A DNA stretch of 64,000 bases, from assembly GCA_015039365.1 (NCBI GenBank), contig WION01000124.1, positions 1-64,000 of the forward strand. The letters are read 5' to 3'. The notes under the pieces are model-generated. The model searched no databases. It was not told where the DNA came from and saw nothing but the letters and a program-made list of their open reading frames with translations. The position numbers and the translations under genes were made by a program. This document shows positions 3,015 through 56,169 of this stretch, in pieces; within the stretch, counting starts at the first letter, position 1; each line of letters begins with the position of its first letter. The stretch is from Amanita rubescens (lineage: Eukaryota; Basidiomycota; Agaricomycetes; Agaricales; Amanitaceae).

Positions 3015-5558
3015 ATGAGCGACTTCCAATCCAACAGATCCTTTACTCCTTCCGATTCGCTCCATCCTTACCGCAACGTCGTACTTCCACCGTCCTTGAT
3101 GCCGGATTTCATTACACTTTGGTGTCTTGTTGGCGACGATCCTCCATTTCAGGTATCCGTACATCGCGACGTCAAGGTCGACTTTTTGAAGAAGGCTATA
3201 AAGGCGGAAACATATCTTCCTGGTATCAATGCCTCCACTCTAGTACTTTGGATGGCGAGGGCATTCTGCAGGCTAACGCAAACAGCTGACTGACTCTATC
3301 TTGCCAGCTAAATGATCCAGAACCTGTGGATCCAGAAGATACCCTCATGCAGCGTATTAGGTCGAGAGGCGATGTGGCGACGTTCGCAAAGCGGTTGCCC
3401 GCTACACAAACCATGTCGGCGCTCTTTCCGGACCGGGACCCTCTCGACAACCATGTCCATGTTCTGGTGCGCCTTCCCTCCACAGGTGAGCCCATCGCTG
3501 TCGTGTCATTTGTCCATCATTAATCAAAACTCCGTTCGCAATGCTCTCATCTTATTAGGACCATCCTGGCTGGTTGAAATTCATAATGAACTGTGGGGAA
3601 AGCGTGATTTTTTTGGCAAGATTTTTCGTACCGCAACCCTGACCAAAGGTGACTTCACCGAACTTCAATGTCACCTGGACGCACTGAATCCGAAACGCAA
3701 CTCTGATGAATATGAGGCGGAGGATGTTCTTGCCACGAAATCCGCATTCTTACGCGAGAGGAGCACTGGTCTTGACCTAGACCTTGGTGATGGCCTAGTC
3801 CCCCGTTTAGATGCCTCCCAGCCCCCATCTGATAATGTCCTCGACGACGACGTTGTGGATGACGATGTTGTAGACTGCGATGTTGTGGACGATGATGTTG
3901 TGGACGACGATATTGTAGACGACGACGACGACGACGCTGCCATGGTCATTGATTCCGACCACTGCTCAGGCGACACTCATCTTCCAAACGAAGCCACGGG
4001 GATTTTCCCCTACACCATTCGGTATGTGGACCTGACTGTCCTCCAGTCGAAGAAGAAGCTTCGCGTGCCACGGTTGATGCTCTTCCGAAACGAGTGGAAT
4101 ACCATGATAGACATCTTTAACAAGAGGAAAAAGGGCAAGAATGGAAGTGCCCTCTTCTCAGGTCAGCCGGGTATCGGTGAGCACCATTATTGGTATCTGA
4201 CTGCCACTTCCAACCAACAAACCAGGGAAAACATGCATGTTGTATTCCATCCTCATTCTTTGCATCATTCTTGCCCAGCCAATCGTGTTTCAGGATGTGT
4301 CTGGCAAGGTCTTCATTATTGGTAATACGGTGCTCCCAGAGGGCATGGCACCGGGAGTATCGGCCGACGCCGACGACGTTCTTGCACTCGTCGATGCCGA
4401 CGATAAAGTCTATCAACCTAATGAATATCTCTTTTGTCATGACGAATATCGCATACTGCTAACGTCTTCGCCAAAAAAGAGGAAAGACCGACGGTGGCTT
4501 ACCCAAAGAGTTAACGATCAGCATGCGATGTTTATGATGGAGCCATGGTCGCGAGAAGAACTTGTTGTTGCATCGTTTCGTGCATTCTGCTTGATTAATT
4601 CGCCTGCTTATGATTTATAGGTTGTTCCTGCAAAGCAACGACATCACTCTCAAGCGACTTCAGGAAGCTTCCCGTATTTGCGGGAACATACCTCGTGAAT
4701 GTTTCGCAGCGGCAGTATCCTCTCGTGCTCTTGACGATACCAAAGCGAAGATCAGGAAAGCGATTGAGCAGACTAAGGAGTTGTCTGATACTATCATCAC
4801 GATGACGGTGGATGGTGGCACAGTGATCCATCGCGTATTCCAAATACGCCCATTGTCCAAGCATCGGTTGTGGAACAAGTGTGCCGTGGAACCAGTTTCG
4901 GACTGGGCTTTCTCGGAGATGATGGTTGTCCTGGACCAACGAAGGGTGGGTTCTGCATACGATTTTTACTGTGCCATCAAAGCGTGCCGTGAATCTGCTT
5001 ACACTCGTTGGAAAGACATTTGAATGTCACCTTCACAAATTCCTGAAAACTTCTTCCCGGACCTTTACTATTCAGTCTCTCGATAAACGCTCCACTACTC
5101 ATAACATTCGCTTCACTCCCAACACAAAACAATTCGGAGACATGAAATGTTTCACAGGCGAATTAGCATTGTCCGTCCAGAATAAAACATCATGCTACCT
5201 CCAGCCGCTCTCTCCTGTCTTTCCACCTTTCGACTCTTTCCTGTATCAACCCGATATTTCCCAATTCTCGCCTCTTGTCGCTTTGCAGGCAACTACAGCT
5301 GCCGACCATCCTATAAAGCTTAAAGGTTTGGAGGATGTTCAAACGTCACTCAAGCCTAAAGTCTCTGGGATGAAAGATCTTCGACCAACAACAAAAAGAA
5401 AAATGATCATTCTTTTTGTTGTCCCGGACACGTTGGGGGTGCCTTTTGCAAAGCAGACAATTGAGGGCGCAAAGAAGGGTGCACAAACACTTTGGTATGG
5501 GAAGACTGATCAGTACATTCTTGCGCTATCAGAAGCGGAGGTGTTCGGGGCAAAATAG
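3015..5558 (+). CDS. Crinkler (CRN)-family protein with P-loop NTPase region
   Basis: The N-terminal ~80 residues match the Crinkler ubiquitin-like header: LWCLVGDD, then VDFLKKAIKAE and LNDPEPVDPEDTL after an intron (3243-3307). Next comes the DWL-like part with ELWGKRDFFGKIFRTATLTKGDF. A run of acidic VVDDD repeats (3841-3950) links to a P-loop module whose Walker A, GQPGIGKT, is completed across an intron near 4176-4226, preceded by LMLFRNEW. The C-terminal half carries the family's RPTTKRKMIILFVVPD and LKGLEDVQ segments. CRN proteins were named from oomycete effectors and also occur in basidiomycetes, where the role is unknown. No secretion signal is obvious. All coding blocks join in frame, so I read it as intact, with about five introns. 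Confidence 0.8.
3841..3950 (+). repeat. Acidic coding minisatellite in the CRN gene
   Basis: Roughly 15-bp units (GAC GAC GAT GTT GTG-like) repeat about seven times within the CRN reading frame, giving a V-V-D-D-D pattern that ends in a poly-Asp run. Units differ at silent positions, so this is a somewhat aged repeat kept in frame. It separates the N-terminal header from the NTPase module. Confidence 0.8.
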
Positions 5559-10436: not shown

Positions 10437-12065
10437 ATGCCAAACACAAAGTTATCATTTCTCTCTCATCAAGTTCTCCCCCCAGCCCAGGCTGCCCAGG
10501 ATCACTCTCATACCATCCCACAGTCAAACACCCCACTGCCAGTGCTTGCAGATAGTGCACTTCCATCAAGTAAACCAATATGATATCTTCACATTATCTG
10601 ATTATCTGACAGATACAACCAGATACAGAGGAGACACATATTAAATTTCTCAGGGAGCAATACCTATGCCTGCACTTTCGCATCCTTATCATTGGAAGGG
10701 CCAATTCAGGAAGGACAACTATCATGGAGAAGGTTTGTGGTGTACTAGCAACAGGGACAAGGCCCATCATATATAAGAAGGATGGTAGTACATCATTTAA
10801 CATGGTGAGTCAGATAAGGATGTATGCATGTACCCCCATTCACATGTAATAATAACAGGGAGTATCTGATATTGAAGAAGAGATTACATACCCTGGGAGT
10901 AACTTCATCTTCCATGCCCCTAGTATGGGTTTTGAATCTGGTTCAACTGAGGAATTGGGAATTGTCTGGAAGTTCATTGAAAGGAGGTCTGCAGAAACTG
11001 AGCTGAAGAATCAGCTGCATGCAATTTGGTACTTTGTGTTATTCCTTTACATTACTGAAGGCTGATCAAGCCTCTAGGTACTGTATACCCATGGATGGCC
11101 CCCGTTCCATTCTACATTCAGAACTTGAATTCTTCAATAAAGGGACAGGCAGAGGTAAGTCCTGCTGATTTCATATCTCATCTTGTTGGTTTTGGAGAGA
11201 TTATTCATTGTTACTGCCTTTCCATTGACCAAATTGCCAAATTGCCACAGGATCTACTAATAGTAATCTACAGCACACTGACTAGTAAATATTTCATTCA
11301 CAGTTCCATTGGTGGTTATGTTCACCAAATTTGATTATCAAATAATCAGGGAATTTTGCAACTTGACTGACTTAAATGATGAAGATAAATGGGAGAGAGC
11401 CAGGGAAATTGCTGACATCACTTTTCAGAAAGTTCATCTTCCTAAAGTTTTGAATACCAAATATCCTCCCAAGTTATGTGTGAGATTGGAAGGTGAGAAT
11501 GGTGAACATTTATTTCTCCAAAGTGAAAAAGAAATCCTGCTTTATAGATGTGGATATGCCAAAGAAGAATTGCCCTGAATTAACTCAGATAATTGCTGAT
11601 GCAATTGATGATACCACTATACATCAACTTTTTGTTTCAACACAGATGAATAATCTGGATCTTTCAGTTAAATCTGCACTTCAGTGAGGGTCACATTCAA
11701 AATGTCATTTACTAACATTGACATTGTTCAGACATGTTCTGAAACATAAACACTGGACATGGGATGATGTCATTCTCATAGTTCTCTCAAAATTTCCACA
11801 TTTTTGGGTATGCACTTTCATCAAACTGCACATAAGCATAGGATAAATCAACTGTCAACAGGTGGACAGGGAGGTAGGTGGCCTTCATATGGAATGATAT
11901 GTGGATGACTGCAAAAAGTTCATCAGGAGGTAAGTAACACTCCACTGCATTCACATGAAACCAAGATTAGTCATGCTTCAGATGGCCAAAAAACAACTGA
12001 GTGAAACACAGGTTAGTTGTCACCACATTATTATTGGCAGGATCTGGTGCTATTGATATCAGTGG
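10437..12065 (+). CDS. P-loop GTPase-like (G-domain) gene, 5' part, degenerate motifs
   Basis: Reads as the basidiomycete G-domain family usually annotated as 'G domain-containing protein'. Exon 1 starts at ATG 10437; exon 2 resumes at 10629 (the acceptor that keeps the frame) and holds FRILIIGRANSGRTT (residues ~67-75), where the family has GKT. The G3 segment reads HAPSMGFE instead of the usual HDSRGFE. G4 (MFTKFD) is conserved. Later exons give YCIPMDGPRS, RHVLKHKHWTWDD, VAFIWNDMWMTAKSSSG and, after a proposed 16-nt intron (12001-12016), TTLLLAGSGAIDIS. The exon ending at 12065 stops in phase 2 and runs straight into the microexon array. Loss of the P-loop Lys and the G3 Asp argues against normal GTP hydrolysis. 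It may be the 5' part of a longer gene that also includes the downstream kinase. Confidence 0.65.
12001..12016 (+). other. Candidate 16-nt intron (or frameshifting insertion)
   Basis: GTGAAACACAGGTTAG lies between AAACAACTGA and TTGTCACCAC. Removing exactly these 16 nt, which start GT and end AG, joins MAKKQL to IVTTLLLAGSGAIDIS in one frame, as expected for the family. Leaving them in shifts the frame and breaks the conserved motif. It could equally be a disabling insertion. Confidence 0.4.
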
Positions 12066-14443
12066 GTAAGTGAAATTGACCTTGCATATGTACTAGATCT
12101 GATATATTGTCATGACAATAGTTTGTGAGTAATGCTTCCATTTGTGATCAGTAATCTTGCTCCATAATATACAGGAAGTGAGTGATATCCAAATTCATTG
12201 CAGTTTTTGGTAAATTATCCCATTGTGTATTATATAACCAACAGCAAGTGAGTGATCTATTATGGTGATCAGATTTGTTAATTCAGTTTCCTGTGGATAG
12301 GGAGTGAGTGATACGACACTGCCTTGGCACGCCACATCTAACCTGTTTAAAGAAAGTAAGCAGCATCGAAGTTTATGAATCAGACATGACTCAATGAACA
12401 ATAGAAAGTTGGTGACATATTGTTATCTGAAAGAGAGCTTCAACAAATTTTATTCAATTAATAACAGGAAGCAAGTGGCATTTCATTTCTATCCCCTTAT
12501 GAACATTACATCTTATCCTAAAATAATAGACAGTAAATATTTCTCATTTTCAAAGCCTAGGCTTGACCAACTATTGCAAAACAAACAGGATGTATGTGAT
12601 ACTTTGTGAGATGTGAATCCATGATGAATATGAAATGCTATGGCAAAAGAGAGTCAGTGACATTCTTTTTTTTTTCCAACTTGTTATGCTACATATGTAA
12701 CTCCATTCTAAAAGGAAGTGAGTGGTGCTGGCCACTCTGCTTCAAGACAATTTGGACATTCCTTTGTTTTACAGATTGTGAGTGATATTGCAAGTTTTGT
12801 GGAATGCAGTGGGATCACAACAAACATAGAAGGTTAGCAGCATGCCACATTGGTTCAGTGGTTCAAAAGACAGTTATCAAAATTATTGCCTATTGCCAAC
12901 AGTGTGTGAGTACTACATTGCAAACATTTCTGAAAAGTTGTTCTATCTATATTTTCCCTATGACTGATAGGATGTGAGTGACATTGAAGATTCTTGTGGA
13001 AGGCAGGCTCATCACATCTTTTCCTATAACTTCACTAGGAAGTGGGTGACATTCAATGCACAATTTATGAAAGGCAATCTCATCCTAGTATGACCAACAG
13101 GGAGTGAGTGCTAGACATTGCACATGTTGAGGAAGGCAGTCTCATTACATCTTTTCCTATGACCAACAGTTTGTGAGTAACATTATACATTTTGTAAAAG
13201 ACAGTTTCATCACTTCTTTTCCTATGACCCACAGGGAGCAGTGAGTGACATTGCACATTTTATGAAGACAGTCTCATTATCATACTTCCTTTCCCATGAC
13301 CATTGACAAACAGTTTGTGAGTGACAAGTTGCACATTTTTGAAAGGCAGTCTCATGGCATCTTCAATTCCTGTGACCAACAGGAAGTGAGGGACACATTC
13401 AAGTGCATGAAGTTGTGAATGGCAGTCTCATCACATCTTTTCTATGACCAACAGCTTGTGAGTGACATTGGACATGTTGTGACAGGCAGTCTCATCACAT
13501 CTTTTCCAACTATGACCAACAGCTTGTGAGTGACATTGACTCAACAGTTTGTGAGAGGCAGTTTCATTGAATCTTTTCCTATGACCTACAGTTTGTGAGT
13601 TTGCACATTTGGTGGAAGGCAGTTGGCACATTATCACATCTTTTCCTCTGACCCAGGCTGTGAGTGACATTGCACATTTTGTGAAATGCAGTCTACATCC
13701 TTTCCTGTGACCAACAGTTTGTGAGTGACATTGCACATTTTGTGAAAGGCACTCTCATCACATCTTTTGTCTCTGATGGACAGGGAGTGAGTGACATTCA
13801 TTTTGAGAAAGGCACTCTATCATATCTTTTCCTGTGACAAACAGGGAGTGAGTTATACTGCACATTTTGTGAAAGGCAGTCTCATCACATCTTTTCCTAT
13901 ACCAACAGCAGGTGAGTGACATTCCACATTTCTGAAATGCAGTCTCATCACATCTTTTCCTATAACCAACAGCGAGTGAGTGACATTGCACATAAGTTCA
14001 TAAGATGCAGTCTCATCACATCTTTTCCTATGATGAACAGTTTGTGAGTGATGACATTGCACACTTTGAGAAAGGCAGTCCCATTGCATCTTTTCCTATG
14101 ACTGACAGCTTGTGAGTGACATTGCATATTTTTGTGAAAGGGTGTTTCATCCTATCTTTTCCTACTATGACCAACAGCAAGTGAGCAACATTGTGCATTG
14201 TTGTGAAACAGTCTGATCACATCTTATCCTATGAACAACAGCGAGTATGTGATATTATTACACACTGTTGTGGAACAGTGTCACATCTTTTCCCATGACC
14301 AACAGAAAGTGAGTGGCATTTTGTGAACACTTCCAAAAGGTAGTCTCATCATGTCCTACATATGTACTGTACTATATCAGGAAGTGAGCACATAGTCTCA
14401 CCTTTTCTATTTCTTTGCCTTACATTATCATTGTCAATAGATT
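12066..14443 (+). repeat. Array of ~38 single-codon microexons separated by intron-like units
   Basis: Starting with the donor at 12066 (GTAAGT), the sequence alternates an intron-like unit (mostly 50-75 nt, donor GTGAGT or a variant, branch-like TATGAC, acceptor AACAG/ATAG) with a 3-nt segment. Examples of the 3-nt segments: TTT 12122-12124, GAA 12175-12177, CAA 12245-12247, GGA 12301-12303, ACA 12530-12532, GAT 12589-12591, ATT 12775-12777, TTT 13170-13172, CTT 13455-13457, CAG 13909-13911, CGA 14242-14244, ATT 14441-14443. The only exception in length is a 6-nt one at 13235-13240. From about 12906 the intron bodies are related to each other (a ~60-70 bp tandem repeat); before that they are not. 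One donor is GC (12471). None of the triplets is a stop codon, and in phase 2 the concatenation is open throughout. Confidence 0.8.
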
Positions 14444-14865
14444 GTAAGATTCTATATCAGCTTACCCAATCCCAGGGCCTCACATGATTGTCCTCTGACT
14501 TACATCATGATTTCTTTGATTTTCAGGTGAGTGAAACTGACTTATGAAACATCAAATTTCATATCAGCCCACATGCTAGTGTGTATGTCTGATGGTACAT
14601 TGAAGGATTTACTCTTTTTTATGATTAGCATGCACTTCTTTCTATGTTTGGAGGTCAACAAAAGAACTTTTTAGTTGATGTATGTATGGTTTGTTTTTCT
14701 TGTAATTTAATACTGACACTATTGCAATAAGCCTACTTCTTGCCAAATTTTAGTTTGTAAATCTTTCCACTTCATTTGCTCTATTTATGCTGAAACTCTC
14801 AAGCAATTATTTTCATTGCCAAGTTATCATTTTGGATCAACAAACCATTTCTTCCATCAGTCACG
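14444..14865. other. Spacer between microexon array and kinase exons
   Basis: Continues the AT-rich, CpG-poor composition. Frame fragments such as ALLSMFGGQQKNFLVD (about 14629-14676, followed by a GTATGT donor) suggest further exons joining the array to the kinase, but I could not fix a unique splice path. Confidence 0.35.
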
Positions 14866-16535
14866 GAAGCTTTGGATCAATTCAAGCACAAAGGCTTTGT
14901 TGAGAAGCTGAAGACTGACATTACACCTACTACTCTTGTGCATTCTGGTTATCAAGATTTGGTCCAATTCCTCTACAAGCAGGTGACTAACATTGATGGT
15001 GTGTGCCTTACCTACTCATACACCACATATGAACAATTCATGGCACAGCAAGTTTCCATTTGCCTTGGGACCAGGAGGAAAAAAATGGTGACAATGCACC
15101 CATGGAAGCATTGCTTGAAATCATCCTTAAGGTATTCAAGTTGTACTTCCCAAGCATCAGTGTACCACAGAGTCTAACTCACAACCACTAGTCAACAGCA
15201 CGTGGTGGTTCAATGGCTAAAACATCTGCCCATGATTTTATGGGTGAATTGTTGCATCTATCTGAATATTCTGTCTCAGCATCTGAACTGAGCACCTTAA
15301 ACATTGAGTCATTGCTTGATTTTATTCTCCATGTATGTATGTATACACTCTTTTGTTAGTCTATGTGCAATATTTTCCCTTTAGTCACTCTGCCATGACA
15401 AATTACACATTCAGAGTGAAAATCAAAAGGCTAGGAGGCTCATGCTTGAACTGGTGTCCAAGAAAAATATCATCCCAAAATCTCTTTTTGTGACAGATGT
15501 CAAAACTGCCAAGATGACAGTGATTGGTATTGGAGGCTTTGGGCGTGTTTTCAAGGGTGCATACAAAGGATTGCCAGTAGCATTGAAAGTGGTGGACAGG
15601 GGCCATACCAATGTTAGTGCTTTTCTAAGTTTTTATTTTTTAACAATTCTGAAAAGTTTAATAAGAACTCACTTAGTAAAGACTTTTGCCAGGAGGCTCT
15701 AACATGGAAATCACTCTCACACCATTTTATCCTTCCTCTCTTAGGGATATTTGAGGAGGGATCACAGCTCTTTCTCGTGTCACCGTTCATGGCAAATGGG
15801 ACATTGACTGGATGGAGAAAGACTCAGCAGGAGCCAATCAAGATTAATGAGATCCACAGAGTGGTGGGACTCCTGCACGTACTTTGTGATGAATTTGCTA
15901 ACATCTTCTACATAGATGCTAGAGGTAGCAGAAGGTGTGAAGTATCTTCACTCAGAAGGAATTGTACATGGTGACTTGCATGGGGTAAGGATTCCAATAT
16001 CTTTGTGCCTCCCAAATCAATTCATCACATTATTTACCAGCATAATGTCCTCCTTAATTCTGAATTCCATTGCCAAATCACTGATTTTGGATCAACTCGA
16101 CATTTCGAAGCCATTGTTACACGATCTACAACAGCATTTGCTATCAATTTTGTTGCACCCGAACTCTTTGGCATGTGCACCACGTGTGGTCTGTTCGACT
16201 GTGATGGATGTCAGAGAGATCAGGCTTTACTGAAAAGAAGCAAAACAATGGCAACAGACGTTTATGCTTTCGGTTGCCTTTATTATGCAGTGTGTATAGA
16301 TTTTTGCTTGATTGGTGCATTGATCCAAGACCTTAAACAGACATTCTTTGGTTCCGTTCCTTTTCATGACAAGACCGACATTCAAATTCTTCGACTAGTC
16401 ACAAATGGAAAGCGCCCGGATCGATTAGAAAGTCCGAGAATGGAAGACGATACCTGGCATCTCATTCAGAGATGTTGGGAGTCCATTCCTTCTAAACGCT
16501 CGACGATAAAGGACATTGCGGCGGCATTGGCTTGA
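14866..16535 (+). CDS. Protein kinase, TKL-like (basidiomycete expansion); 5' end uncertain
   Basis: A helical N-terminal exon (EALDQFKHKGFVEKLKTDI) and a linker precede a kinase domain. Visible motifs: Gly-rich loop GIGGFGRVFKG, VALKV with the ATP-binding Lys, SPFMANGTL hinge region, LEVAEGVKYLHSEGIVHGDLHG, where HGD replaces HRD and is followed after an intron by HNVLLN, then ITDFGST (DFG intact), VAPELF (APE), TDVYAFGC and IQRCWESIPSKRS. Several short introns interrupt the domain (for example 15615-15692 and around 15988-16038). HGD without the Arg is common among these fungal TKL-like kinases. All catalytic residues are present, so activity is plausible. The first exon has no obvious ATG of its own, so this may be the 3' part of the upstream GTPase-like gene. 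Confidence 0.7.
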
Positions 16536-49600: not shown

Positions 49601-52600
49601 TTAGCTAGGTATGTAACAACCAGCCCAATCACGACCAATCTTGCAACCTTGAAAGTTGATATAGGCAGATGCTTTCCGGGAAATTATGATGATGCTGTAT
49701 GGAAAAGCCTGCTCTGGAACCCACATGAGTCGATAACCACCATGAACTGAATGGGTCCAGCCTGTTTTGGTATCATTTGTCCAAGCAGGGTAAGTGCGGC
49801 CTACAATGTACGACTGTGCAGATTCTTCCGGCTCTAAGGTAATGCAGGTGCCGTCAGTCGGGGAGGTAATGGAATTGACTGGATCTGTATGAGGGTTTGG
49901 CACCTCAGTTGAGGCATCCCACACCCACACAGACCCGTCGTATGCTCCGGAGACGATGCGTGCACCATCAGCAGAGAAGGCGACGGAAGTGATGGTACCC
50001 GAGGCGCCGTTAGGAGCGAAGGGGTTTGTATCGGTGTGGCCATGATCGAGTACCTTCAGCTTAGCCCCAGTTGAGGCATCCCACACCTGCACAGACCGAC
50101 CCGTGGATGCGGAGGCAATGTACATGCCGTCAGCAGAGAAGGCAACGGAGGAGACAGTCGCATAAGCATTGAGCAACTTCAGTTTGGCCCCAGTCGAGGC
50201 ATCCCACACCCGCACAGACTTGTCGTCTGAGCCAGAGATGATGCGTGCGCCATCAGTGGAGAAGGCAACAGAATTGACATCACCGGTGTGGCCATTGAGC
50301 ACCTTCAGCTCAGCCCCAGTCAAGGCATCCCACACCTTCAAAGACCGGTCACCTGAGCCAGAGGCAATGCGCGTGCCATCAGCACAGAAGGCAACAGAAT
50401 AGATGGCCCCGGTGTGGCCATTGAGCAGCTTCAGTTTGGCCCCAGTCGAGGCATCCCACACCCGCACAGACTTGTCGTCTGAGCCAGAGACGATGAGTTT
50501 GCCATCAGCGGAGTAGGCGACGGAATAGACGGTCCCGGTGTGGCCATTGAGAACCTTCAGCTCAGCCCCAGTCAAGGCATCCCACACCCGCACAGACCGG
50601 TCTTCTGAGCCAGAGATAATGAGTTTGCCATCAGCGGAGTAGGCGACGGAATAGACGGTCCGGCTGTGGCCATTGAGAACCTTCAGCTCAGCTCCGGTCA
50701 AGGCATCCCACACCCGCACAGAGTCGTCATGTGAGCCGGAGACAACACATTTACCATCAGCGGAGAAGGCGACTGAAAAGACAATATTGGTGTGGCCATT
50801 GAGCACCGTCAGCTTAGCCCCAGTCGACGCATCCCACACCCGCATGGACCTGTCTTCGGAGCCAGAGAAGATGCGTGTACCATCAGCAGAGAAGGCAACC
50901 GAATAGACGACCCTGGTGTGGCCCTTGAGCACCTTTAGCTTAGCCCCACTCAGGGCATCCCACACCCGCACAGAATGGTCACTTGAGCCAGAGATGATGC
51001 GTGTGCCATCAGCAGAGAAGGCGACGGAATTAACATCACCATTGTGGCCCTCGAGCACCTTCAGCTCAGCTCCAGTCGAGGCATCCCACACCCGCACAGA
51101 GGCACCGCGTGAGCCAGAGGCGATGTGTTTACTGTCAGCAGAGAAGGCAACGGAATAGATGGGCCCGGTGTGGCCATTGAGCAACTTCAGTTCGGCCCCA
51201 GTTGAGGCATCCCACACCCGCACAGACTTGTCGTCTGAGCCAGAGACGATGAGTTTGCCATCAGCGGAGTAGGCGACGGAATAGACGGTCCCGGTGTGGC
51301 CACTGAGAACCTTCAGCTCAGCCCCAGTCAAGGTATCCCACACCCGCACAGACCGGTCTTCTGAGCCGGAGATGACGCGTGTGCCATCAGCAGAGAAGGT
51401 GGCGGAATAGATGGACCCAGTATGGCCATAGAGTGTCTTCAGCCTGGCCCCAGTCGAGGCATCCCACACCCCCACCGAGTGGGCCAAACTAGAGACGATG
51501 TGCATGCCATCAGCAGAAAAGGCAACGGAATAGATAAAAGCGGGGTGGGAGTCCCTGAGCCCCCTCAGTTCAGCCCCAGTTGAAGCATCCCACACTTGCA
51601 CTCCGTTGTTGTATGAGCCAGAGACGATGCGCGTGCCGTCAGCAGAGACGGCGACAGATTGAATAGAACTTTCAGTTTGTATAACCGCCAGTGACACATC
51701 ACTAGCCGTCCTATGAGTGAAGGAAGGGATGTGAGGGAACTGGTCTCTCCACTGTTGAGAGAGAGTGGACCCTGTTGACCAGGTCGCCAATGCTGAGATG
51801 TACAGGTGCGGTGTGGACAAAGCTGGTGGATGTGCAACAAAGTAAGTGGCGAAATTGGCTGCTTCCGCAATGTTGGCAGCAAGCTTGGATTCTGCGTTCG
51901 CGTTCTGATCGACCAACGTTGGAAATCGTGAATCCCAAGTGATAGTATTCTCACCTTCAAGACCCATCCGCGCGCAGATTGAAGGATTCTGGTACACTGA
52001 CCGCTGGATCCAAGTAGGTTCATCGCCTCAATCCAGAAGAGAATCCGGATACGAAGAAAGTCCGTGATACGATCGCAGAGATTCGACTTGTCATCGGCCT
52101 CCGTTTCATCGGTCAGGGCCAAATGATGAGCCCAGTGCCGAGAGGCGTACCTCAGGATGGCATTGATATTAGTGTCAACCCAGTGCGTCAGTTCTGGGTT
52201 CTCAGAATCGAGAACGAATGACGATGGTATGTCACCTATATTGAAACGTAGCAACTTCAACATGAAATCGAAGCAATAGTTTGTGAGGAGAGCGTGGTGG
52301 TGGGGCTGGATTGACATGGAAATCCGACGACCATCAAGCTCGAATGTCGATCGTGTCTGACTGAAGATGAAGTCGGGAAATGATGCGTGGTACCAAAGAA
52401 CCTGGTCATCTTTGCAATAGAGAACCGCGTGAAGTTCATTCAACACCGTGATCGCAGTTTCATCTGATTCAGAGAGGAGGGTAGCAGCAAGAGATGTCGA
52501 TGTGCGTTCAAATGTACAGAGGAAGGTATGAAGGATGCGCAGACGAGAGTCGAAGAGGTCGTCGTCAAGGCCAGAAAATGCGTCACGCAGGATTTGCTGA

Positions 52601-54620
52601 TATAACTCGTCAATGAGTAATGGTCTCCGTGTACCACTTGCTGAAAATGATTGCCGGACGTGCAGTTTTCGCAGTAGCTTGCACTGCTCGTCTACCGTGA
52701 TCAATGGACGTGGTGTCAAATACCTCACGATGGTTGCGGCGGAAATAAACAGACCGTCCGCCAGTCGTGCCGTGGTCTCCAGCTCCGGCTTTCCCGCAAA
52801 GTTCGGAAGCTTGACGTGCAGGTATTTGGTGATATCTGATTCTATATGCTCAATCGGCACGTCTTGCAGGCGACAGACGGCGTTGGACGAGAAAGACTTG
52901 CAGAGTTCGACGACATGAGGGTCTGGTCGGCTTGTGATAAGAAATTTGAGTCCTCGGAGGGGATGTCGGTTAATTGTCCTGAGTATGTCTTGAAGAAACT
53001 TGGACCCTCCAACGGCTTCGATCTCGTCCAATGCATCAACGATGATGAGGTAAGGTGGGAGCTCTGTATGACGTTGGGGTTTGGACTTCTCCCATGGGCC
53101 AATAAAGAGGTTCTCCATCTGCTCGGTCAACTTGTCGGCCGAGTCGAACTTGTCTGATTCATGCAAAGCGTGCGCGTACGATCTCGACTTTCGAGCGAGC
53201 TGGTATACAAGGGTGGGTATAATATGGACTTGTCGTCTTGTCTCTTCAAATTGGCGGGAACAAAAAAAGGTGCCGCCCAAGACGGTATGTCGTCCCGTAT
53301 GTTCTTTCTTCTCAAGCCCATCGAAGTGCTGGGCAATGGTATATGCGATTGTTGTCTTGCCAGAGCCAGCTTGACCGGTCAGCCAGAATACAGGCGGGCA
53401 GTCCGCCGAGATGGCCTCGGCCCATGTGATTACATCCTTGAGAATCTGCTCGCGCGTTCCTTCGGTGCATGGGTCGCGGGTCACTGTCCCCCCGCCCCCC
53501 AAGTCAGCGTTGTAGATCGCCTTCCGAGCGCGCATATGGTCAAGCTGCGATAGCTAATGGATGATCAGCACTCGTCCTAGTAGAAGATTGTGATGTTTAC
53601 TTTGATCTCAGAGTGTATATCATCCACCTTTCTCTCGGTGGTCCAGGCGATGTCGAGCTGGATGCGACGAGTGAGCAAGTTGGTAATCTGTTAGGAAGTT
53701 CAATAGGGTTGACCTGGAAAGTCTTCCTAGCCTCGTCAATCCGTTTGAATGCATCCTCTATGGTGCTCCTGTCTGCTTCGTTCTCCAATAATTGTCTAAG
53801 TGTTCCTTTCGATGCCATTTGCTCTAGCTTGCGGATTTCATCCCGGAGGATCCTGCGCATATTGGTTTAGTAATGTCTACGATTTTGTTATGTGAATGGC
53901 TTACTCGGCAAAGGCCATCATTCGTGGTTTTGCAGAGTCAGGGATACCTTCGTCCACGGCCTTATTCACGGCAAGGAGTCTTTCAGCAGTCTGAATGATG
54001 ATTTCTTCAAGGGTGTCCTTGTTGTCTTTAACCGCCTGAGGCAGAGAATGAGTGAGTGTGTGGTAGACAGGCTGACAATGTACATTTTTTATGTCGATGA
54101 TGGCGTTAACAGCGGCAACAGGCGCCTTTGCCAGGGTTCCACCGAGACATCCCTCGACCTTCTTGAGCAACATTTCCATGCCAGTCCAAGCGATTGCGAG
54201 TATATCTTTGGCCGAGTAGGAGTTTTGCGCTTGAGAATACACCGAAAGCGCATCTGGGTGCGTCTCGGGAAAGGCTGTTCCTGAGATGGCGGGTGTTGAG
54301 GAGATGGATGTTGAACCACATGGGGTAGAAGTCGAAATACGGCTTGTTTCGCCGTCGTCACGCCCTTTGAGAGGTATCCGAGGTCAATCGAAAGTTCGGC
54401 GTCTTGTAATCTCACCTTGACCCAACAGATCTGGAACGCTCAAATACAAAGGAGGTGGGGATCTTCTTGTTGAGTCGGATACAATACACTGACTTGAAGT
54501 CGTCGACTTTGCAATTCCTGCATTGGAGGCAGAAACCGGACTCGTGGCTGATTTGGGTGGCTTAATCCAACCCCGAAATGCTTTTAGGAACGTCTTCGAC
54601 GAGGGTCGATGATCGGCCAT
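49601..54620 (-). CDS. NLR-like protein: N-terminal helical domain, NACHT, 14 WD40 repeats
   Basis: STAND/NLR-type signalling protein. N-terminus MADHRPSSKTFLKAFRGWIKP, then a helical domain common in mushroom NLRs (AWTGMEMLLKKVEGCLGG, DTLEEIIIQTAERLLAVNK, LRDEIRKLEQMASKG) across several introns. The NACHT domain has Walker A FWLTGQAGSGKTTIAYTI, Walker B LIIVDALDEIE, and FLITSRPDPHV (sensor region). A winged/helical arm follows (LHTFLCTFERTSTSLAATLL, HASFPDFI). After an intron near 51940-52000 comes the C-terminal propeller region with 14 WD40 repeats (about 49850-51700), mostly GHTG..YSVAFSADG...SGSDDKSVRVWDA. The last ~80 residues are a separate tail. In other fungi such proteins govern non-self recognition (HET-D/HET-E type). 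Apparently intact. Confidence 0.88.
49850..51700 (-). repeat. WD40 coding repeat tract of the NLR
   Basis: Fourteen units of about 126 bp (42 codons). Internal units differ from each other at few positions; for example the unit with KLIVSGSDDKSVRVWD occurs at least twice nearly unchanged. Outer units (first two, last two) are more diverged. Fourteen blades would make two seven-bladed propellers. Confidence 0.85.
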
Positions 54621-55382: not shown

Positions 55383-56169
55383 TGAATATTACTTTGTGAA
55401 TAGCCTCAGTGTTCACGATTGGCGCTTAAACCGCGTGATTCTTTCTCGCCTGACGTGTGATTCAAAGGTGTGTGGGTTTCGGTGAGGTTCGTGAGTCAAT
55501 GAGGATCGAGAGGTTAGATTAGCCCAGACATGAAATCGCGCGAGGCAATGGAAATGACTGAATGCTACTGCGAGCCACTTTATTTGACCATAAATTTTGG
55601 AGTTCGATTTAAAATCTTTTCAGGATCGAAGTGCGCGTGGTACCGCACTTCTGGTAAGGGCAGCGCACCGATTGTCGTTGCCACCGCAATGTCAGAAAAT
55701 GGGTACATAGAGCATTTAGATTGCCTACCAATATCCACGGCCATAGGACTCTGAAAGCACCGCATCCCGTCCGATCTGCGCAGTCAACCAGAGTGCCGCC
55801 TAGTTAGTACCACGGTGGGGGACCACGCGGGAATCCTGGGTGCTGTGGTTTTTTTCTTTCTCCGATCCTATATCTAAGTTGTTCGCTATCTAGCAACAGG
55901 ATCTTTTTCTTTTCTCGTGCGCAAAACGCTAATATACAGCTACGCACGCCGATAGCCCGGGCATATTTTAGAAATCATACCATACAACGCCACAATGTTG
56001 AGATTAGATCGCATCAAGTTGCAGAGATGTTCCCGAGAACGTCGAGCGCCGCAACCGTTCCTTGACGTACCCTTTGATAATACAATATCATAGGTTCGAG
56101 CCGTTATCAATAACAGCATGCAGTTTCTAATAATACAGTACGAGTGAACAACATATAAATATACGTATT
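55383..56169. other. Intergenic region, no confident gene
   Basis: Contains a 74-codon frame (55530-55754) that may be a second exon of the preceding hypothetical gene. Otherwise nothing is recognisable. Confidence 0.4.

Follow-up and report, generated by a model that had tools for sequence, protein, structure and literature searches.

Several described systems contain alike repeats with variable positions or very small exons. The HNWD/NLR genes of Podospora anserina carry alike repeats with hypervariable positions, which are shuffled within and between family members, change in number and have a role in recognition (PMC4986451). Aphid bicycle genes (PMC9168663) and schistosome microexon genes, which form families (PMC5825161), consist of many tiny exons and evolve fast, one bicycle gene containing more than 100 microexons. 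Plant exons of 1–15 nt, including the 1-nt exon of APC11, can be spliced correctly (PMC4674806, PMC8831610), and Xlr2 of Trichoderma provides a functional microexon in a filamentous fungus (PMC11121469). Here we report an array of single-codon exons in a 64,000-nt stretch of the 75.7-Mb Amanita rubescens assembly that was searched in this study (C29:1-64000; the whole of this stretch is called the window). The array lies between the GTPase and protein kinase parts of one gene and occupies positions 12063-14443 of the forward strand, where 38 short exons, 37 of them 3 nt long and the other 6 nt, run from TGG (12063-12065) to ATT (14441-14443), with good splice sites around each. A preliminary description of this DNA, made from the letters alone, had counted about 38 such microexons in a row with one GC donor, and both observations hold; the single GC donor follows GAA at 12468-12470. 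A literature search that covered few subscription papers found no architecture like these arrays.

This exon list came from a chain limited to 3- or 6-nt exons. When exon length was left free (flat prior of 1–120 nt; splice-site matrices trained on 3-nt units, with exon positions excluded), 22 of 29 exons in the window were 3 nt long and one was 6 nt, the remaining six (59–86 nt) being fused units. Across 12 of 16 loci, allele copies among them, 575 of the 643 exons found by the same procedure had 3 nt and 12 had 6 nt, so that very short, frame-neutral exons abound; some end anchors of these chains were misplaced, and they had no working shuffled control (shuffled sequence returned no chain). 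A second splice-site matrix yielded 3 nt for 378 of 426 exons in eight models, with no model for four loci, an end anchor lacking for two, and no control, as shuffled sequence gave no exons. The 3-nt spacing is not a product of chance. The motif AG-N3-GTRAG occurs 29 times inside the window array, where every other gap of 0–15 nt occurs at most once (AG directly followed by GTRAG, once), and the window outside the array holds 3–13 matches at each gap. Two further one-codon candidates lie beyond the limits first proposed, namely GAG at 11927-11929 and a candidate last exon, TGT, at 14580-14582 (GCTAG|TGT|GTATGT); an AG-triplet-GT stands at the latter place in 10 of 16 loci, including the window. 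Between ATT and TGT, an AG|GTGAGT at 14525-14528 could be a zero-length exon or a ratchet point, and AG|GT is found there in 11 of 16 loci.

The array head (12063-12905) has 15 exons of one codon each, which together read W F E Q G K K E T D R E I K C and are separated by mutually unrelated introns. The middle and tail (12906-14443) are hypervariable in their codons and hold 23 exons, all but one of them 3 nt long and that one 6 nt, mostly between alike introns. The sole 6-nt exon, GGAGCA at 13235-13240, contributes two codons, and the CAG unit at 13909-13911 (AACAG-CAG-GTGAGT) can be read either as a 3-nt exon or as skipped via its second AG. Across eight genes, head introns are 0.50 identical to each other and 0.75 identical between orthologous positions (baseline 0.48), and middle introns form one family, with 0.72–0.74 identity within and between genes alike. 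The earlier remark that intron bodies are unrelated in the first third of the array and near-copies afterwards is thereby borne out.

The reading frame of the array can be deduced from its surroundings. The exon that starts at 11078 ends at 11154 (GGCAGAG|GTAAGT), so that FPHFW, at the end of the GTPase part, finishes in phase 0; the pre-array exons at 11862-11873 (VDRE), 11927-11929 (GAG, one codon) and 11982-12011 (MAKKQLSETQ), a layout common to main-clade paralogs, are all in phase 0, and the post-array exon at 14629-14679 (HALLSMFGG) is open in phase 0. Since the flanking exons on both sides are in this phase, each triplet is a whole codon, and the window array reads WFEQGKKETDREIKCDEGFGAFELLFAFGGQRFLQRKEI. 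The preliminary description had placed the array in phase 2, with the peptide LNKEKKKQIQKL; the correct phase is 0 and the peptide begins WFEQGKKETDREIKC, in agreement with the GTPase frame and with the head of an intron-free homolog, P0104. A donor at 11153 (joined frame LNKEKKKQ) was considered and is ruled out by the GTPase frame. From the original interpretation we therefore retain a coding segment split into single codons, with its middle filled by one intron family, and drop the phase and its peptide.

In 14 genes, none of 754 array codons in phase 0 is a stop, and the two remaining frames contain 4 and 81 stops among 740 codons; this count leaves out L020, L026, L028, L030, L031, L034, L009, L010, L016, L018, L025, L027 and L014/L015 (L-numbered loci are A. 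rubescens stretches), as well as the non-3-nt exons of L029, L033 and L035–L037. For nine of these genes, with no stop among 524 codons, composition predicts 26.8 stops, and 5,000 shuffles never gave fewer than 23. As one neighbouring frame is nearly stop-free too, it is the mature sequences that decide between frames. The first 13 head triplets, compared in nine paralogs, differ at 101 of 1,404 sites (7.2%), and the intron bodies at 3,166 of 18,287 (17.3%), with different lengths in 307 of 432 intron pairs (nine genes). Intron lengths in eight genes fall into all three classes modulo 3 (133, 128 and 216 of 477), and 413 of the 477 introns would, if retained, disrupt the frame or add a stop.

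Mature sequences were sought through protein searches, the products of which are P-numbered. P0002–P0004 lie on contigs of ~1.5 kb with at most 154 nt outside the coding part (P0004 has 478 aa, or 1,437 nt including the stop, on a 1,486-nt contig); because these contigs hold little beyond the coding part, and judging by the similarity, the intron-free homologs, which come from JGI contigs, are likely transcripts of relatives. The array of L009, WFESADNAAAKERQYYDDGVHAGYGYYGGEKISEKERDKRKDFVEREIL, chained with only 3-nt units allowed, and P0004, WFESADDAAGKEREYYDDGIHSGGYGYYGGKKISEKERDHRRDFVEREIL, share the residue at 41 of 49 single codons, in order and with one gap. The score of this alignment was 228, and the best of 2,000 shuffled codon orders reached 42. 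Nearly the same peptide, in joined form, is therefore present where the introns are absent. P0104 and P0105 carry a head of the type found in the window's clade. That of P0104 is identical to the head of L019 at 15 of 17 residues in frame 0 (3 and 2 of 17 when L019 is read in the two remaining frames) and to that of the window at 12 of 17; P0105 is identical to L019 at 12 of 17. Over 12 loci, head identity ranged from 4 to 15 of 17 for P0104 and from 4 to 12 of 17 for P0105. By eye, P0107 carries the tail of the window's clade together with the exons that follow. Residue composition of the variable parts of three intron-free homologs also speaks for phase 0, with margins of 75, 18 and 64 bits relative to the neighbouring frame. 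The first eight head codons in their commonest form are absent as a contiguous sequence from the 75.7-Mb genome, and a further protein search returned the query itself as sole match. Between P0002 and P0003, the GTPase part is identical at 279 of 292 residues (96%) and the downstream part at 82 of 87 (94%), and the array segment at 39 of 63 (62%), with 21 gap columns.

The arrays are a genome-wide family trait, which the preliminary description had not foreseen. The pattern AACAG-N3-GTGAGTGAC has 2010 matches across the assembly (979 + 1031), and its reversed form has 1 (0 + 1); a spacing of N4-5 gave 8 matches (5 + 3; reversed 2, 0 + 2), and N6 gave 21 (8 + 13; reversed 2, 0 + 2). Array heads, recognised by the GAG exon and its flanks with at most three mismatches, were found at 82 places, some of which are repeated copies of the same locus (reversed 0). 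Twenty stretches were chosen from the pattern matches and fetched, 19 of which contain arrays and 18 of which have at least one of the GTPase and downstream parts; the order in the family is GTPase part, array, helical region and kinase. Chaining succeeded for 12 of 14 loci, with 30–89 units each, and 11 of these arrays begin WF..GKK. Three of the loci, L029, L030 and L031 (on C239, C667 and C79), hold almost the same array gene, probably because haplotigs are duplicated in the assembly, and contributed no diversity data. L020 (C13:577000-586999) has an array whose codons, CTA among them, specify L, Q and R and stand in irregular units, and L032 (C1:764510) is a lone array-like unit distant from the other matches listed, perhaps a remnant. 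Nine named Amanita proteins (P0001, P0108–P0110, P0114, P0115, P0117, P0120 and P0131) all fail to cross the array, ending before or soon after FPHFW or starting at MFG. Among them, the A. brunnescens gene models P0001, P0109, P0110, P0114 and P0117 either end with FPH[FY]W or shortly beyond it, or begin at MFG; this break at the position of the array suggests that A. brunnescens also has arrays.

Codons vary far more than introns in the hypervariable part, a further feature that had not been anticipated. A 62-nt intron is identical in 11–41 copies per locus in seven loci, mostly 65 nt apart. In five arrays, picked for holding identical introns, introns deviate from their consensus at 85 of 10,742 sites (0.8%) and codons from their majority at 246 of 519 (47%). 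Codon sites are thus ~60 times as variable as intron sites in these five arrays, and we rejected unit duplication followed by neutral drift on these grounds. Introns at least 85% identical flank nearly unrelated codons. The near-identical loci L034 and L035 share 50 paired units with seven codon changes, including CGA/GAA, CTA/GCA and CGA/ATC; three of five clean changes are multi-nucleotide, the introns inside the changed blocks are identical, and some change in 10 of the 50 introns falls outside these blocks. Compared with L036, codons differ in 21 of the 44 units that could be paired for L034 and in 21 of the 43 for L035; some difference is seen in 21 and 19 introns, and 12 and 14 units have no partner. 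An indel of 58 nt, corresponding to one unit, separates L024 from L026, which are otherwise different at 7 of 270 sites in the triplets and 45 of 4,577 in the introns.

Array codons also have a composition of their own. In nine genes, 94% end in A or T, xTT makes up 135 of 143 (154 of 351 in GTPase exons) and xGA 116 of 137 (28 of 134). C-ending codons number 1 of 524 versus 164 of 1,187 in GTPase exons, and G-ending ones are few (28 of 524), unlike in GTPase exons. Both xTA (3 of 143 versus 47 of 351) and xGT (6 of 137 versus 40 of 134) are scarce, which fits a need to keep TAG acceptors and early donors from arising.

Taken with the 3-nt rule, the stop-free phase 0, the conserved head codons and the residue order of the intron-free homologs, these data lead us to the reading, with a probability of about 0.8, that a family of GTPase–kinase genes joins 30–89 single codons in phase 0, intron by intron, and that alike introns reshuffle these codons. 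On the sequence data, the codons of an array are likely spliced together one by one. Introns of ~62 nt would be taken out sequentially by intron definition, so that two splicing events would never act simultaneously across one 3-nt exon. It is likewise likely that single codons are shuffled via alike introns, which would serve as homology arms for conversion and unequal exchange within and between arrays; such exchange would swap, add or remove individual codons while leaving the frame intact, and codon diversity would be maintained by selection acting on the protein. The product would be a flexible hypervariable segment on a GTPase–kinase protein, likely a recognition surface. We put at even odds a more far-reaching model, a codon-cassette system in which each residue of a receptor-like segment has its own exon, the constant intron acts as both splicing signal and recombination arm, and dozens of arrays yield an in-frame recognition repertoire.

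A number of observations weigh against joining and reshuffling of single codons. No chain was obtained for 2 of 14 loci (L016 and L025), and L013, one of the 12 chained, has a differing head. The L020 model contains three stops, L010 one TAA and L027 one TGA; L034 has 4-nt exons (GAAG, CTTC) where L035 has 3-nt units, owing to frame damage or an assembly error, and in L009, by eye, one unit has 4 nt and the array is followed by a surplus base. Among the homologs, P0002–P0005 are without a near-exact locus among the fetched loci, P0104 and P0105 stop without the expected tail, and in two remoter protein pairs divergence is roughly equal in the downstream part and the array segment (52 and 53%, 44 and 37%). 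As to shuffling, middle introns are only 72–74% identical in the eight genes mentioned above, unlike in the five picked arrays, and allele pairs are few. Three of the seven L024/L026 triplet differences belong to one codon adjoining the deletion, and the L022/L028 array differs at one triplet site and at three sites in introns or acceptors, with a single 3-nt indel besides. The codon xCA, which places CAG directly ahead of the donor, shows no reduction (22 of 44 in arrays versus 66 of 244 in GTPase exons). As xTA and xGT are avoided but xCA is not, a splicing cause of codon choice is likely yet incomplete, and avoidance of cryptic splice sites likely accounts for part of it.

An unlikely explanation, if the most credible of the alternatives, is that an old coding string received introner-like copies of one intron between every pair of codons and shows ordinary codon variety without any shuffling. 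Ready-made introns inserted in this way would equally yield alike introns next to unrelated codons, and the membership of the middle introns in one family, no more alike within than between genes, fits such an origin. So does the fact that neighbouring codons are no more similar than shuffled ones in all five arrays compared, which also counts against reshuffling. Identity reaches 85% or more in 584 intron pairs; 575 of these (the 85–95% bins) flank equal codons in 12–15% of cases versus 10% overall, and the nine most alike pairs do so in 22–33%. Insertion accounts for the alike introns, but not for the 3-nt spacing or for L034/L035, where near-identical arrays have had codons replaced between identical introns: spacing at every 3 nt, in phase 0 and in one orientation, would require a ruler, and we know of no introner that possesses one. 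Array length also ranges from 30 to 89 units, and copies in many unrelated genes were not seen, as the matches listed (the first of 2010) are clustered save two and the fetched clusters lie in one gene family.

The arrays could instead produce many in-frame isoforms per gene by random skipping of 3-nt exons, the 3-nt rule being kept because skipping stays in frame. Any subset of joined units does remain in frame, and tiny exons can impair recognition of neighbouring splice sites (PMC4674806); P0004, however, has nearly all codons of one array, in order, which favours constitutive joining and makes random skipping improbable. That the arrays are artefacts, either scrambled by assembly or dead copies, is very improbable: some copies do contain 4-nt units or stops, near-identical triplicate loci suggest duplicated haplotigs and the window copy is without its P-loop lysine, but phase 0 is free of stops over all 754 codons and the homologs come from other sources. 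Scarcely tenable is the view of the array as a non-coding satellite within one long intron, in which the repeat itself preserves splice-like motifs. Tandem Repeats Finder does report a 64–68-nt period from 13114 and one of 127 nt, from ~13.1 kb on; the head units, though, are not mutual repeats and yet obey the 3-nt rule, their codons vary less than their introns, phase 0 is open, and arrays are matched by P0104 and P0105 and, residue by residue, by the intron-free P0004.

The remainder of the gene surrounds the array on both sides. Its GTPase part, at 10628..11807 on the forward strand, comprises coding exons 10628-10804, 10859-11028, 11078-11154, 11304-11492, 11548-11683 and 11732-11807, which are stop-free when joined and matched by paralogs, the last ending in FPHFW. 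In the window copy, the P-loop within exon 10628-10804 reads GRANSGRTT, with Arg for Lys, and GK is kept in 15 other loci; the window copy may thus be GTPase-dead, going by its sequence. Post-array exons at 14629-14679 (HALLSMFGGQQKNFLVD), 14732-14756 (PTSCQILV) and 14804-14982 (SIIFIAKLSFWINKPF to LYKQ) resemble the helical region of P0002–P0004 and P0107. A TTT exon near 14752 was rejected, as its AG is missing in L012, L015, L016 and L021, and the frame is explained by exon 14732-14756. Several exons at 15415..16535 (+) encode the protein kinase part (PF07714, E 1.7e-36; PF00069, E 5.6e-34).

The GTPase part had no Pfam match and no sequence match in PDB in a profile search of solved structures. 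A first structure prediction was poor (pLDDT 56.9), and AlphaFold2 modelled P0002 with a pLDDT of 80.7, confident save for residues 1–21, 73–78 and 295–357, the last of which is the array-coded stretch. By Foldseek, the nearest folds to this model are the immunity-related GTPases Irga6 and GM4951 (E 9.5e-06 and 2.5e-05), from which it differs by low TM-scores (0.31–0.42) and an identity of 10–14%.

Elsewhere in the window, a putative NLR-like gene lies at 49601-53535 on the reverse strand, where an open reading frame with a P-loop region (51565-53535) adjoins another with many alike WD repeats of 126-nt period; its domains are named by the look of the sequence. A 5S rRNA gene lies at 55733-55851 (Rfam RF00001, 103.8 bits).

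With dozens of successive one-codon exons in dozens of gene copies, the family has an extreme gene structure, and the array is a place where annotation breaks. If confirmed, it would test the lower limit of exon recognition, would mean that the spliceosome copes with 30–90 successive introns of ~62 nt, and would constitute a eukaryotic route to residue-by-residue protein variation without risk to the frame. Aphid bicycle and schistosome microexon genes have longer exons, and the array is set apart from them by single-codon exons in phase 0, in runs, between alike introns. Plant and Trichoderma microexons, as far as described, stand in isolation or as an adjacent pair, in contrast to the dozens arrayed here. 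Introners and introner-like elements likewise comprise one intron family in many alike copies (PMC9860276, PMC4457414; text searches on introners gave nothing on Amanita); they differ in that the copies here, among the matches listed, are confined to one gene family at 3-nt spacing. By analogy, the closest working parallel would be the diversification of HNWD repeats, which resemble the array in combining highly alike repeats with hypervariable codons (here 0.8% versus 47% in the five picked arrays). The Amanita family encodes no STAND/NLR protein with translated repeats, having a GTPase-like fold and a kinase; in the HNWD/NLR genes the unvarying portion of each repeat is itself protein-coding (WD, ANK, TPR), whereas here it is an intron, and the variable codon alone would remain in the protein.
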